From the NCBI GenBank assembly GCA_019454405.1, contig JACFOH010000007.1:22962-86961 (forward strand): 64,000 nt of DNA. The letters are read 5' to 3'. Below the pieces are notes generated by a model. It made no database searches. It worked only from the letters and a program-made list of their open reading frames with translations, and had not been told where the DNA came from. Of this stretch, positions 4,615 through 51,715 are shown in pieces (the stretch's first letter is position 1; every line of letters begins with the position of its first letter). This DNA comes from Promineifilum sp. GTDB lineage: Bacteria > Chloroflexota > Anaerolineae > Promineifilales > Promineifilaceae. A program made the position numbers and the translations under genes.

Positions 4615-6843
4615 CTATCCCTGAGGCGTACTCGCCTCTTGCCTGGCCAACAGCCGGGCGATAGGTCTCAAATCATCCATCCACCATTGGCTGATGGGCC
4701 GGCTGTGCGCGAAATCCATCAGTTTCGAGATTCCGTCCAGTTCAGTGAACACGATCTCTCCCCGCAACTGACCGATGCACGCGCTCTCGTGAGATCCATT
4801 AAGAGCGCGTTCGATGAGATGTTCAATGCAAGCCACCCCCAGGCGCGTGGCGAAGATACGATCAAACGGGGATGGCGAACCACCCTGTTGCATGTGGCCC
4901 AGAATCGCCTGGCGGACGTCAAAAAGGTCGCCGCCCTCTTCCTCAAAGAGCATCCGCATGAAGTTCGTAGTGTACACTTCATTAGCCATCTCGTTGCGGA
5001 TGATTAAGCCCAGACGTTTGCCTCGCTCGAAGCTGCGCTTGAAATCATCGACGTCCTCCACCAGGTCGCGCATGGTCACGCCTTCCTCGTGAAGGTAGAC
5101 ACGTTCGGCGCCGGTCGCCAACGCGCCCATCAGAGCCAGATAGCCGCAATAATAGCCCATGACTTCAACGATGAAGGTGCGCTGCGTGGCAACGGCCGAC
5201 TGCTTGATCTTGTCTACGGCCATGATGATGCTGTTCAATGCGGTGTCGGCCCCGACACTCAGCTCCGTCCCAGGCAAATTATTGTTGATCGTTGCCGGCA
5301 GACAAACCATCGGGATATCGAAGGCGGGATAGTTCCGGCGCTGCATGTAAAGTTCCAATATGGACTCATATCCCGTCCACCCGCCTATCATCAGGATGCC
5401 GTCGATCTGATTTTCTTCGAGGTTACGCGCGATCGAATACAGATCGCGCCCCTTCGGGATCAAGCGATTAGTGCCCAGCTCGGAACCGCCCCGACTGGCC
5501 CAGCCATTGACGTCCATCCAGTCGACTTCGGCGATCTCATTATTGATCAGGCCGCGAAAAGCATTGCGAACGCCGAGCATAACGTGGCCTCGATCCATGC
5601 CAATACGTACGGCAGCACGTACGGCCGTGTTCATCCCCGGCGCGGGACCGCCGCCGTGGACGATGGCGATGCGCAGGCGGCGCTGGCCTGGATCGGGCGG
5701 ATGCGGCTTGGCCCGAACAAGCGTCTGCACAACCTCAAACGATCGCTTGAAGGTGGCGCCACGCAGTTCAAGGGCTTGATCGAATTCTTTCGCAGCCATA
5801 GCTTTGGCTACAGCCCGCGTCTTTTCCAGCGCCACCGCCAACGGAGTCCGCGTCAGTTTGTTGCCCTGCATACCCACGATTAGGGGCTCGTCATGGGGAT
5901 GCATAGACATAAGAGCATCGACCGCCTCCACACCCAACATCGTGCTCAGGTTGCGATCAAACGCGCTGGGCGACCCTCCGCGCTGTACATGACCAAGCAC
6001 GGTGATCCGCACATCTTCGCCCAATCGACTCTCGATGACTTCCTTGACATGCTGACTAGTGATGGGGTTGCCTTTGCGGTCACGCGCGCCCTCAGCGATG
6101 ATGACCATGCTGTCACGCCGCCCCATCTTGCGGCCATTGCTCAGCTTCTCGCACATCTTCGCCCCCCAATCGTCCACATCGGGTGGCGATTCGGGGATGA
6201 AGACCCAATCCGCTCCGGAAGCGACGGCCGACATAAGCGCCAGATAGCCACAATTGCGGCCCATAACCTCGACGACAAAGCTGCGCTGATGGCTGGCGGC
6301 CGTGCTGGAGATGGCGTCGGTGGCGTCGACGATCCGGTGCAGGGCCGTGTCGGCGCCGGTCGTGATATCCGAGCCGAACATATCGTTATCAATCGATCCG
6401 ATGATCCCTACCACGGGCAGAGATTTGATCCGCCCAGCCGCTTTCTTGGTCACCTCGCCGTTCTCGACCAGTTCCCGAACAAGGCCGTCCCATTCGGCAT
6501 GGAGTATCCCGGCGCCGGTCTGGCTGCCATCGCCGCCGATGACGATCAATCCCTCGATCCCATTAAGCAACAGATTTCGAGCAGCGTGCAGACGGCCCGC
6601 CCGGTCATGGAACGGTTTGCAACGAGCCGAGCCAATCACTGTGCCGCCTAACTGCAGGATACCGCCAACATCGCCCCAGCTCATGGGTTTAATCCGCTCG
6701 CCGCCTTCCACCATGCCCGAATAGCCTTCATAGATGGCATAGACTTCCAGGCCGCGATTAATTCCCGTACGCACCACAGCACGAAGGGCCGCATTCATGC
6801 CCTGGGCATCACCACCGCTCGTTAGAACTCCGATTCTTTTCAT
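4615..6843 (-). CDS. Duplicated (eukaryote-like) ATP-type 6-phosphofructokinase with degenerate C-terminal half
   Basis: A 742-residue protein made of two tandem PFK lobes. Numbering starts at the ATG at 6843 (MKRIGVLTSGG); an in-frame ATG at 6885 would add 14 residues. The N lobe is intact: GGDGS at 103-107 and GSIDND at 149-154, giving catalytic Asp152 and an ATP-type donor site. The C lobe begins near 390. It has GGWTG at 487-491 in place of GGDGS and PATINNN at 516-522 in place of TIDND, so both catalytic aspartates are gone. Animal and fungal PFK-1 shows the same pattern, with a catalytic N half and a regulatory C half. I infer that the C lobe binds an effector. Confidence 0.9.
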   Translation of the reverse strand: MKRIGVLTSGGDAQGMNAALRAVVRTGINRGLEVYAIYEGYSGMVEGGERIKPMSWGDVGGILQLGGTVIGSARCKPFHDRAGRLHAARNLLLNGIEGLIVIGGDGSQTGAGILHAEWDGLVRELVENGEVTKKAAGRIKSLPVVGIIGSIDNDMFGSDITTGADTALHRIVDATDAISSTAASHQRSFVVEVMGRNCGYLALMSAVASGADWVFIPESPPDVDDWGAKMCEKLSNGRKMGRRDSMVIIAEGARDRKGNPITSQHVKEVIESRLGEDVRITVLGHVQRGGSPSAFDRNLSTMLGVEAVDALMSMHPHDEPLIVGMQGNKLTRTPLAVALEKTRAVAKAMAAKEFDQALELRGATFKRSFEVVQTLVRAKPHPPDPGQRRLRIAIVHGGGPAPGMNTAVRAAVRIGMDRGHVMLGVRNAFRGLINNEIAEVDWMDVNGWASRGGSELGTNRLIPKGRDLYSIARNLEENQIDGILMIGGWTGYESILELYMQRRNYPAFDIPMVCLPATINNNLPGTELSVGADTALNSIIMAVDKIKQSAVATQRTFIVEVMGYYCGYLALMGALATGAERVYLHEEGVTMRDLVEDVDDFKRSFERGKRLGLIIRNEMANEVYTTNFMRMLFEEEGGDLFDVRQAILGHMQQGGSPSPFDRIFATRLGVACIEHLIERALNGSHESACIGQLRGEIVFTELDGISKLMDFAHSRPISQWWMDDLRPIARLLARQEASTPQG

Positions 6844-7132
6844 TGGATAAGCACCGTTGATTGATGCATTGTCTGATTCATGCATGATTACCGATTGATT
6901 ATTGTCATGTGAACCCGCCTACCTCAAATGAAGAACCGATATTGACGTAGTGGTCGAGCACATTCGTTCAATTCAGACGATCGTGGCCTTTTAACTATCA
7001 GCGTACAGCGGAGTGGGATTAAAACAATCCCTATACTATCGAGATCGGCTTACGAGGCAACTTTTCACAGATTAGTGACGACTTCATGGCCAGTAGTCAT
7101 CATAACCCCAATCGGCTAAAATTGGCCCAATA

Positions 7133-11248: not shown

Positions 11249-11276
11249 TTGACACGGTAAGTGGCCGTGGTATAAT
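11249..11276 (+). promoter_or_regulatory. Consensus sigma-70 promoter for the S1-protein leader
   Basis: A perfect TTGACA (11249-11254) and a perfect TATAAT (11271-11276) are separated by 16 bp. Transcription should start near 11283, giving a leader of about 280 nt before the S1 gene. Confidence 0.85.
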
Positions 11277-11282
11277 TGGGAA

Positions 11283-11513
11283 TTGGCTGAGTGGGTTAAC
11301 GGTCGGGCGGCGAAGAGTTCAAGTGATTGAAAAAACCACAAGATACGACTCGTGCGTACACTTGCGGTTTTACAATTAAGACTCCAAGAGACTATTATGC
11401 TGAATAGATAACGCCACCTAACCCTTTCTGAAAGGACACTTTATAAGTGTCAATGGCGTAGGAGCTCGGCCCGTAGTTGTCGCCTTAGACAACAGAGGCC
11501 GAGTTTTTGTTTT
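11283..11513 (+). ncRNA. Structured leader or independent small RNA upstream of the S1 gene, identity unknown
   Basis: Three elements lie between the consensus promoter and the S1 gene. Hairpin 1 pairs 11332-11342 with 11361-11371 (11 positions, one mismatch) plus an inner 4-bp stem. A compact three-way junction is closed by ACGCCA (11411-11416)/TGGCGT (11454-11459), with two abutting hairpins at 11423-11435 (5 bp, 3-nt loop) and 11436-11450 (6 bp, 3-nt loop). It ends with an intrinsic terminator. Terminator placement about 50 nt before the start codon suggests attenuation or riboswitch-like control of rpsA-infA. It could also be a free-standing small RNA of about 230 nt. It does not fit 6S, SRP, RNase P or hammerhead RNAs. 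Confidence 0.5.
11465..11513 (+). terminator. Intrinsic terminator at the end of the S1 leader
   Basis: CTCGGCC (11465-11471) pairs with GGCCGAG (11497-11503), an inner GTTGTC/GACAAC stem (11476-11481 with 11488-11493) extends it, and TTTTTGTTTT follows at 11504-11513. It lies between promoter and start codon, so full-length S1 mRNA requires read-through or antitermination. Confidence 0.85.
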
Positions 11514-11562
11514 AGTTAAGGGATCTGCAATCCGCAAAACATAAGCCGTTGTAGGAAAACGT

Positions 11563-13074
11563 ATGTCTGAAGAATCGATGAACTCCTTAGAAGATCTGCT
11601 GGACCAGCACGATTATGATATGCCCCAACCCGGAGATATCCGCATGGGCATCGTCGTGACCAACACACCGCAAGGCCTTATCATCGATCTGGGATTGAAA
11701 CGCGATGGCATCGTGCCCCAGTCTGATCTCGCAAAACTAGAGCCTGAGGAGCGCGAGGAGATTAAGGTAAACGACGAGATCCCTGTCTATGTCGTCCAGA
11801 CTGAGGACCCCGAGGCGCTAGTCGTTTCCATTCACCTGGCCCGCCTTAATCAGGATTGGGTGCAGGCGGAAGCGCTTCTCGCCAGCGGAGAGATTTTCGA
11901 GGGCGAGGTAATCGGCTACAACAAAGGCGGCGTCATCGTCCCCTACGGCCGTATTCGCGGGTTTGTGCCCATCTCGCATCTGAGCGACGTGACGCCCGGT
12001 ATGGGCGAGCGTCGCCGCCAGCAACGCCTGGCTCGCCTGCGCGGCGAGACGATCGGCGTCAAGATTATCGAGGTCGACCGCCACCGCCATCGTCTGGTCA
12101 TGTCGCAGCGCGAAGCCCAGAAGGAATGGGAGGAAAAGAAGCGCGGCGAGCTCCTGGAAGTACTGCAACCGGGCGAGGTCCGTACCGGCCGCGTGAGCGG
12201 CATGCGCGATTTCGGCGCGTTTGTTGATCTGGGCGGGGCCGATGGTCTGGTCCATATTTCGGAACTTTCATGGCACCGGATCGAACACCCACGCGAAGCC
12301 GTCAAGCTGGGAGACGAAATCGAGGTCTACGTTCTGGGTATCGATCAGGAGTCTGGTCGCATCAGTCTGAGCCGCAAGAAATTGCTGCCCAATCCATGGG
12401 ATACTGTCGCCCAACGGTACGTCCAGAACCAACTCGTCGAAGGCAAGATCACACGCATTCTCGATTACGGCGCGTTCGCCGAAATCGAGCCGGGTGTCGA
12501 AGGCTTGCTCCATGTCTCACAACTGTCGCGCAATCCGGTGGAGAATCCCCACGATGTGGTTCATGAAGGCGAGACTCATTTATTGCGTATCGTCAGCATC
12601 GATCAGAAGCGCCAGCGCATCGGTCTGAGTCTGAAAGCAGTGACGCCAACGGAACAGATCGAGTGGATGGCCCAGAGGGAATTGGCCGAAGCGTTGCGGC
12701 TCGAAGAAGAAGAGGCTGCTCAGGCAGCACGCAGAATTCCGAGCAAGGACGAGGCCCAGGAAGTCCCTGAGGCTGAAGAGGCGGAGTCGCCGGTCGCCGA
12801 TGACGTGGAAGCCGCCGTAGAAGAAACCGGCGCAATCGTCGAGGAAGTCATCGGCGAAGCCGAAGTCGCTCTCGATGATGTCGAGGCAGCTGTCGAGGAT
12901 ATTGAAGATACCGTTGATGAAGCCGCGGAAACAGTCGAAGGGACAATCATCATTGAAGAAGTTTCCGAACCGGCCGATGAAGGCGAAGCAATCGTTGAAG
13001 AACTGATAGAAGCTGTGTCTGAAACGGCCGAGAATGAGGATCCGGGCGAGGCTAATGACGCCCCCCTCGAATAA
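11563..13074 (+). CDS. rpsA: 30S ribosomal protein S1-like protein with four S1 domains and an acidic tail
   Basis: An RNA-binding protein expected to assist mRNA docking on the 30S subunit. Four S1 (OB-fold) repeats begin near residues 23, 108, 204 and 288; repeats 3 and 4 carry the best motifs ([20 protein letters not shown] and [21 protein letters not shown]). From about 385 to 503 the protein changes to an Ala/Val/Glu/Asp-rich tail with repeated VEE, VED and VEAAVE units and almost no basic residues. TAGGA lies upstream of the ATG. infA follows after 16 bp, so the two translation genes are probably co-transcribed from the promoter at 11249. Four repeats rather than six is common outside Proteobacteria. 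Confidence 0.9.
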
Positions 13075-13090: not shown

Positions 13091-13336
13091 ATGGCTAAAA
13101 AAGAAGATAAGTTAGAGGTCGAAGGTACGGTCATTGAACTGCTGCCGAATACGCAGTTCACGGTCGAGTTGGATAACGGGCATCGGGTTTTGTCCTATCT
13201 TTCCGGTCGCATGCGCAAGCATTACATCCGCATTTTGCTGGGTGACCGGGTACGGGTAGAGATGACGCCTTATGATCTGGAACGCGGCCGTATCACTTAC
13301 CGTTACCGTCGCAACGTTCAAGCCGCCGAAGCCTGA
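13091..13336 (+). CDS. infA: Translation initiation factor IF-1
   Basis: An 81-residue single OB-fold protein that binds the 30S A site during initiation. It has the family start [14 protein letters not shown], the [21 protein letters not shown] core and the [21 protein letters not shown] strand. AGGAG sits 5 nt before the ATG. The C-terminus (RRNVQAAEA) is slightly longer than the standard 72-residue form. Its position directly after the S1 gene suggests joint expression. Confidence 0.97.
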
Positions 13337-51300: not shown

Positions 51301-51715
51301 TGGTGGAGATGGCGGGAATCGAACCCGCGTCCGAAAAATTCGACCTCCAGATGTCTACAAGCTTAGTCGACCTTTTTAGTTTCGTGGTCGGGCGCCCCGG
51401 TCAACTGGGTCAGCCGGCTCACTAACCGATCACCCCCGAAAGGGCCTCTCTAGCCGCGCCTATCGGTATCCGCGCGGAGCACGTCGGCATTGATGTCGCC
51501 CGCTAGCGTCCGACCGACGAAAGGACAATAGCGAACGGGTTCCTTGTTTAGGGGAACATCTGGCTATCCCTTGGCTGGATTAAGCAGCCATCGGGAGAGC
51601 GCTGTAAGCATGGGTGCGGTTGGCACTTATGCGTATGCTTCCAGTTTTACGAGATGTAAAGCGTGCTCGGCTTGCGATCCAGGGCCAGCCTTCCCCGTCG
51701 AAGCCAGTCATCCCC
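51301..51715 (-). ncRNA. ssrA: tmRNA (SsrA)
   Basis: Rescues stalled ribosomes and tags the nascent peptide. The 5' end GGGGATG (from 51715) pairs with the 3' CATCTCC followed by ACCA, and CCA is encoded. The T arm reads GGGTTCGATTCCC. The 5' segment has the conserved GACTGGCTTCGACGGGG and CGAGCACGC. The tag frame reads GCC AAC CGC ... GCT GCT TAA, giving ANRTHAYSALPMAA with a GCC resume codon. Length 415 nt. The segments between are expected to fold into pseudoknots. Confidence 0.97.

Follow-up and report, generated by a model that had tools for sequence, protein, structure and literature searches.

The nearest parallel that we found to the locus described here is the leader of the Bacillus subtilis rplJL operon in which, as outlined in the report on that system, L10(L12)4 favours termination by stabilising an anti-antiterminator (PMC4538822). 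For the gene of ribosomal protein S1 itself, the account available for E. coli rpsA is one of translational autocontrol by bS1, with free S1 competing with 30S-bound S1; that source describes S1 control in γ-proteobacteria, at the level of translation, and portrays S1 as being without strict sequence preferences (PMC10931766). Besides, the rimP-leader (rimP-nusA-infB) and rpsL-leader attenuators carry a conserved terminator ahead of a translation operon, the former being presented as having no larger conserved element (PMC2965389). In three surveys of attenuators or structured RNAs (PMC2965389, PMC2864571, PMC8632094), the term "rpsA" is absent from the main text, as is "Chloroflex*" from that of the first, and we recognised no rpsA transcription attenuator in the open-licence literature on rpsA/S1 leaders, attenuation and Chloroflexi.

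The leader of the rpsA-infA operon analysed here seems to be a novel switch for the control of S1 and IF-1. As in the outline of B. subtilis rplJL, a ribosomal protein operon is preceded by a (here predicted) antiterminator that overlaps an intrinsic terminator, with readthrough unless the antiterminator is prevented; unlike there, the gene is rpsA, the transcript carries the antiterminator strand at its 5' end and no anti-antiterminator was recognised, and feedback by the encoded protein, which is the model for rplJL, is a guess for the rpsA leader (PMC4538822). With E. coli rpsA, as described in that work, the locus shares the gene and a structured leader, and S1 feedback would be the common logic, whereas the E. 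coli initiation region lacks a canonical Shine-Dalgarno (SD) sequence and the present leader has a promoter-proximal terminator and an SD-like AGGA (PMC10931766). The rimP- and rpsL-leaders, as presented in their survey, resemble it in their conserved terminator ahead of a translation operon, yet here a 5' antiterminator strand accompanies the terminator (PMC2965389).

The window, i.e. the whole stretch of 64,000 nucleotides that was analysed, belongs to a genome assembly of 118 contigs whose best named S1 matches are Promineifilum and other Chloroflexota metagenome-assembled genomes. An initial annotation, made from the letters of the window, had placed S1 and infA downstream of the leader, which the domain matches and the four S1 domains bear out (Table 1). 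The gene order is leader, rpsA, infA, and the leader extends over ∼280 nt from ∼11281 to the ATG of rpsA at 11563. Elsewhere in the window, a 756-aa open reading frame on the minus strand (4615-6885) resembles, as judged from sequence, two tandem phosphofructokinase halves, and a tmRNA match of 415 bases lies at 51301-51715, likewise on the minus strand.

Table 1. Features of the rpsA-infA leader and operon (window coordinates).
Feature	Position	Strand	Basis or remark
Promoter TTGACA-16-TATAAT	11249-11276	+	12/12 consensus matches
P1 5' strand GGCUGAGU, mimic of terminator 3' arm	11285-11292	+	complementarity, folding
P2 5' strand (partner 11412-11419)	11305-11312	+	genus alignment, folding
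P3 long hairpin, conserved apical GACUCGUGCG-type segment	11325-11377	+	genus alignment
Three-way junction of the initial annotation	11411-11459	+	drawable in window sequence, not conserved in genus
P2 3' strand	11412-11419	+	genus alignment, folding
Switching strand GCUCGGCC: P1 3' strand and terminator 5' arm	11464-11471	+	complementarity, folding
Intrinsic terminator (hairpin 11465-11503, then TTTTT)	11465-11508	+	sequence, folding
Shine-Dalgarno-like AGGA	11553-11556	+	read from sequence
rpsA (ribosomal protein S1)	11563-13074	+	503 aa, four S1 domains, PF00575 E 1.3e-66
infA (translation initiation factor IF-1)	13091-13336	+	PF01176 E 2.8e-26

All 98 genomes, with that of the window among them, contained an S1 match (E <= 1e-60). 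Regions upstream of S1 were sampled from 45 of the 52 family genomes (own included) and from 24 of the 46 remaining order and class genomes. Seven family genomes were left out: G005, whose leader is cut by a contig end, G016, whose leader is split across contigs and which, read separately, is of the same type as the family leaders, and G009, G010, G033, G039 and G047, which gave weaker S1 matches only. Of the stretches from outside the family, three are only 182-249 nt long, and for some the gene concerned may be a second S1-like one. One further leader (L011) came from CAMYNE010000401.1, a contig labelled Pirellulaceae (Planctomycetota), with the same promoter as in the window (at ∼2116), a GGCTGAGT 5' end, a CTCGG terminator and an S1 of 65% identity to that of the window; it is probably a wrongly binned Chloroflexota contig. 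Across many relatives, the leader precedes the ribosomal protein gene rpsA. S1 was accompanied by IF-1 in 29 of 30 family loci, while the upstream FAA hydrolase gene was found in 11 of these 30, some of which are truncated by contig ends; since IF-1 is kept with S1 and the upstream gene is changeable, we assign the leader to rpsA-infA. When initiation regions were inspected for SD sequences, a loose SD-like pattern was found in 28 of the 45 family leaders, and the window's rpsA is preceded by AGGA.

A perfect promoter and a strong terminator ahead of the start codon had both been claimed for this leader, and both stood up to inspection. The -35 element TTGACA (11249-11254) and the TATAAT (11271-11276) are separated by a spacer of 16, and transcription would start near 11281-11283. 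Exact TATAAT together with TTGAC. occurs in 45/45 family leaders and exact TTGACA in 44/45, with a spacer of 16 in 11 and of 17 in 34 of them. Each of the 45 has a hairpin assignable as the terminator (by hand in nine, automatically in the rest), starting at a median of 179 nt past the presumed transcription start and ending at a median of 53 nt ahead of the start codon, although its predicted probability at full length was at least 0.8 in only 25/45. A strict automatic scan found a promoter followed by a terminator in 43/45 family leaders (0/180 shuffled copies) and in 9/24 of those from elsewhere in the order and class (0/96 shuffled copies). Promoter, leader and terminator before the coding region thus form the general layout of an intrinsic-terminator attenuator. 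Promoter and terminator are the most conserved parts of the leader, and the 5' arm of the latter reads CUCGG in 44/45 (CUUGG in G001), most commonly as (A/G)CUCGGCC, while the 3' arm usually reads CCGAG, UCGAG or CCGGG. The constancy of the CUCGG arm beside a varying 3' arm suggests that a second constraint acts on the CUCGG strand, for which P1 or direct recognition would be candidates.

A strong promoter, a strong terminator and a compact fold could also be the marks of an independent small RNA, a stable trans-acting transcript of ∼225 nt past which S1 would be expressed by leak-through. Yet the position ahead of rpsA-infA is constant while the upstream gene changes, the middle sequence is variable, and no second promoter (at least 9/12 matches) lies between terminator and start codon in 44/45 family leaders, so that most S1 expression would be expected to come from readthrough. 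Nor is the place of 6S RNA vacant: RF00013 exceeded its cut-off in 53 of 59 genomes, and in the window's own genome the match sits on another contig (G000:C35), away from the leader, and 6S RNA was rejected on this ground. We therefore regard an independent small RNA as improbable, and both 6S RNA and a stand-alone small RNA fit worse than an attenuator with P1.

P1 had been missed by the initial annotation. The 5' end of the transcript, GGCUGAGU, is nearly identical to the terminator 3' arm and can thus pair with the terminator 5' arm; in the window leader, 11285-11292 are complementary to 11464-11471, and this pairing would exclude the terminator. Among the 45 family leaders, GGCUGAGU stands exactly at or near the transcript start in 20 (in 8 of 21 genera by our own count), with near variants in others, and in a sliding-window comparison the 30-nt segment that pairs best with the terminator arm lay at the 5' end in 29. 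In the family alignment, 91.3% of the cells of the eight core P1 pairs were paired, versus 18-48% when the strands were slid by 1-3 columns. When the window leader was folded at increasing lengths, P1 (11285-11291 with 11465-11471) had a probability of 0.99 at 192-198 nt, dipped to 0.36-0.40 at 204-210 nt, returned to 0.99 at 216 nt, fell to 0.02 at 222 nt and was gone at 228 nt, from where on the terminator reached 0.997.

Over the whole family, the terminator arm paired with the first 45 nt at a probability of at least 0.5, at one or more lengths preceding synthesis of the 3' arm, in 35/45 leaders, as compared to 59/135 (44%) with those 45 nt shuffled; when the pairing was averaged over these lengths, the figures were 33/45 versus 25%. 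An antiterminator sharing a strand with the terminator was hence found in the window leader and in 35/45 overall, without covariation; at the chosen threshold, ten leaders did not reach the pairing. P1-like and terminator states were both clean in silico, by the thresholds used here, in 17/45 only, and in the leaders short of this, P1 stays ahead in some and a third fold wins in others. In G021, G035 and G046, P1 spans 15-16 bp and outlasts the terminator even at full length, which indicates that the balance between the two differs between genera. Terminator arms paired with their own rather than with swapped 5' ends at P 0.009 among 25 representatives and at P 0.078 among the 16 core ones, and duplex energies differed significantly from those with shuffled 5' ends in some leaders only. 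A test of outer P1 pairs was negative (P 0.50, 9 leaders) and was flawed, since for one leader at least (G021) the anchor motif matched a wrong copy. The covariation score of core P1 in the family alignment was reached by 102 of 500 shuffles, P1 varying too little for proof, and the evidence for the predicted helix accordingly consists of its position, complementarity and conservation rather than of covariation. Outside the family, the best partner of the terminator arm lay at the 5' end in only one (G052) of eight leaders, and a ninth (G088) was negative. Five leaders of the class from beyond the family (L091, L095, L099, L102 and L103) have a promoter and a terminator, share the (A/G)CUCGG 5' arm and have their best arm partner elsewhere than at the 5' end.

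These observations bear on a simpler arrangement, a constitutive or elongation-factor-set attenuator that would let S1 mRNA through the terminator in a fixed or growth-linked proportion, with no specific RNA sensor. The rimP leader is reportedly under NusA-type control, and such an arrangement would agree with a terminator and promoter that are the most conserved parts and a middle that is free to change. It leaves unexplained, however, why most leaders keep a 5' strand complementary to the arm and why P2 and P3 are conserved within the genus, and we consider it rather unlikely.

As a whole, the leader (11283-11513) folds better than 200/200 dinucleotide shuffles (z -3.74). The initial annotation had recognised no RNA class in it, and Rfam was likewise silent, with no match in the leader at the gathering score or up to E 10, none at the gathering score in the leaders of 16 relatives' loci, and none to the covariance models of ribosomal protein leaders, riboswitches or the T-box. 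A DNA search (E <= 0.001) found no copy of the leader in its own genome besides itself. A model built for the genus (R1) hit seven genomes, each with one strong copy that coincides with the S1 leader, and had no match in the family's other 21 genera, where its filters can lose weak matches; a weak match in G005 (E 0.046) was discounted, the locus being without a promoter match. Of the 27 places with the terminator pattern in the 98 genomes, 21 were at S1 (by coordinate comparison, and for G016 by reading). The middle of the leader has no family-wide conserved core, its mean column identity being 30%.

Within the genus, the predicted P1-P2-P3 fold is supported. The seven leaders form 8/8 P1 pairs in all cases, 5-7 of 7 P2 pairs and 15-17 of 17 or 18 P3 pairs; 93% of cells are paired, and the covariation score (0.189 versus 0.149 shuffled) was matched by only 1 of 500 shuffles, while pairs with both sides changed were not unusually numerous (84/500). 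A long hairpin had been noted from the sequence, and it corresponds to P3, whose apical GACUCGUGCG-type segment is nearly invariant within the genus. The compact three-way junction that had been drawn next to it fared less well. It can be drawn in the window sequence, but the minimum-energy fold keeps its second hairpin only, the closing stem being lost to P2, with which it competes for CGCC at 11412-11415. Among the seven genus leaders, all of its pairs are present in the window alone and the sister G004 is one pair short; in the other five, the closing stem retains 2-4 of 6 pairs and the first hairpin is broken, while two of them keep 5/6 pairs of the second. Pairing in this stretch, which is poorly aligned and gapped, was no better than in shuffles (63.8% of cells versus 61.8%; 125/500 as high). 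We rejected the junction as a conserved core, and by comparative analysis the conserved parts of the leader are P1, P2, P3 and the terminator instead.

In an alignment of three other genera (A2; g4, g15 and g22), a GUCGCUUUAC-type sequence is conserved near the 5' end (columns 43-52), as is GUAAACGAC ahead of the terminator (columns 189-197), the two being partly complementary; they could possibly be the core of a sensor domain in these genera.

The retention of P2 and P3 within the genus, with some covariation, and the near-invariant apical segment would also suit a metabolite or ion riboswitch, in which the middle domain would be an aptamer whose ligand stabilises P1, making an ON switch for translation genes with identical P1/terminator logic. 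Known aptamers usually retain their core over wide distances, whereas the genus model is silent in the other 21 genera, within the reach of its filters, though promoter and terminator persist there. Together with the silence of Rfam and the restriction of genus matches to S1, this makes a riboswitch quite improbable. A leader-peptide attenuator, in which a ribosome on a short leader reading frame chooses between P1 and terminator, could point to the SD-led reading frames of at least eight codons in 13/45 leaders. These frames vary in position and length between genera and none occurs in the window leader; we rejected them as not conserved, and a leader peptide, fitting worse than an attenuator with P1, appears highly improbable.

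What sequence and computation show is a promoter, a terminator and two overlapping helices, together with their conservation and a predicted switch that depends on transcript length. The leader likely acts in cis to attenuate transcription of rpsA-infA, with P1 as its antiterminator; we infer that P1 forms in the cell and that termination is regulated. RNA polymerase would start at the strong promoter and make GGCUGAGU first, followed ∼180 nt later by its complement GCUCGGCC. A free 5' strand would allow P1 to pair and close a folded domain (P2 and P3 in the window leader), sequestering the terminator 5' arm so that polymerase continues into rpsA-infA. With P1 absent or opened, CUCGGCC would pair with the GGCCGAG made next and transcription would stop at ∼11508. 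Surplus S1, or S1 with IF-1, may bind or melt the leader such that P1 fails and the operon is switched off. Such feedback by S1 (or S1 and IF-1) is our leading guess for the regulating signal, a metabolite, NusA and IF-1 being candidates as well. The earlier description of the leader as a riboswitch-like or autogenous attenuator thus stands as to the attenuator architecture, given its conserved promoter, its terminator and competing helix, and an rpsA-infA operon that has no further good promoter from the terminator to the start codon; overall, the initial annotation was partly confirmed in its observations and partly supported in its interpretation.

S1 binds and melts RNA. We tentatively raise the possibility that it opens whatever structure closes P1, letting the terminator win, in which case the leader would be a sensor with no aptamer, read by melting instead of recognition. 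The low sequence preference of S1 would account for a quickly changing sensor domain: only the balance between P1 and terminator would need to be conserved, leaving the middle free to drift. The CUCGG arm in 44/45 leaders, the complementary 5' strand in most and the 30% mean column identity match this pattern. If this proposal holds, the leader would be an S1 transcription attenuator whose sensor is read by melting.

As a predicted two-state RNA, the leader is approachable in vitro without culturing the organism, and its fast-changing middle beside a conserved switch strand bears on the evolution of regulatory RNAs. All 45 family genomes examined have the attenuator layout, and 9 of the 24 other order and class genomes have the promoter-terminator layout. 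If true, the attenuator would represent a separate solution to the dosage of S1 and would extend attenuation to rpsA-infA.
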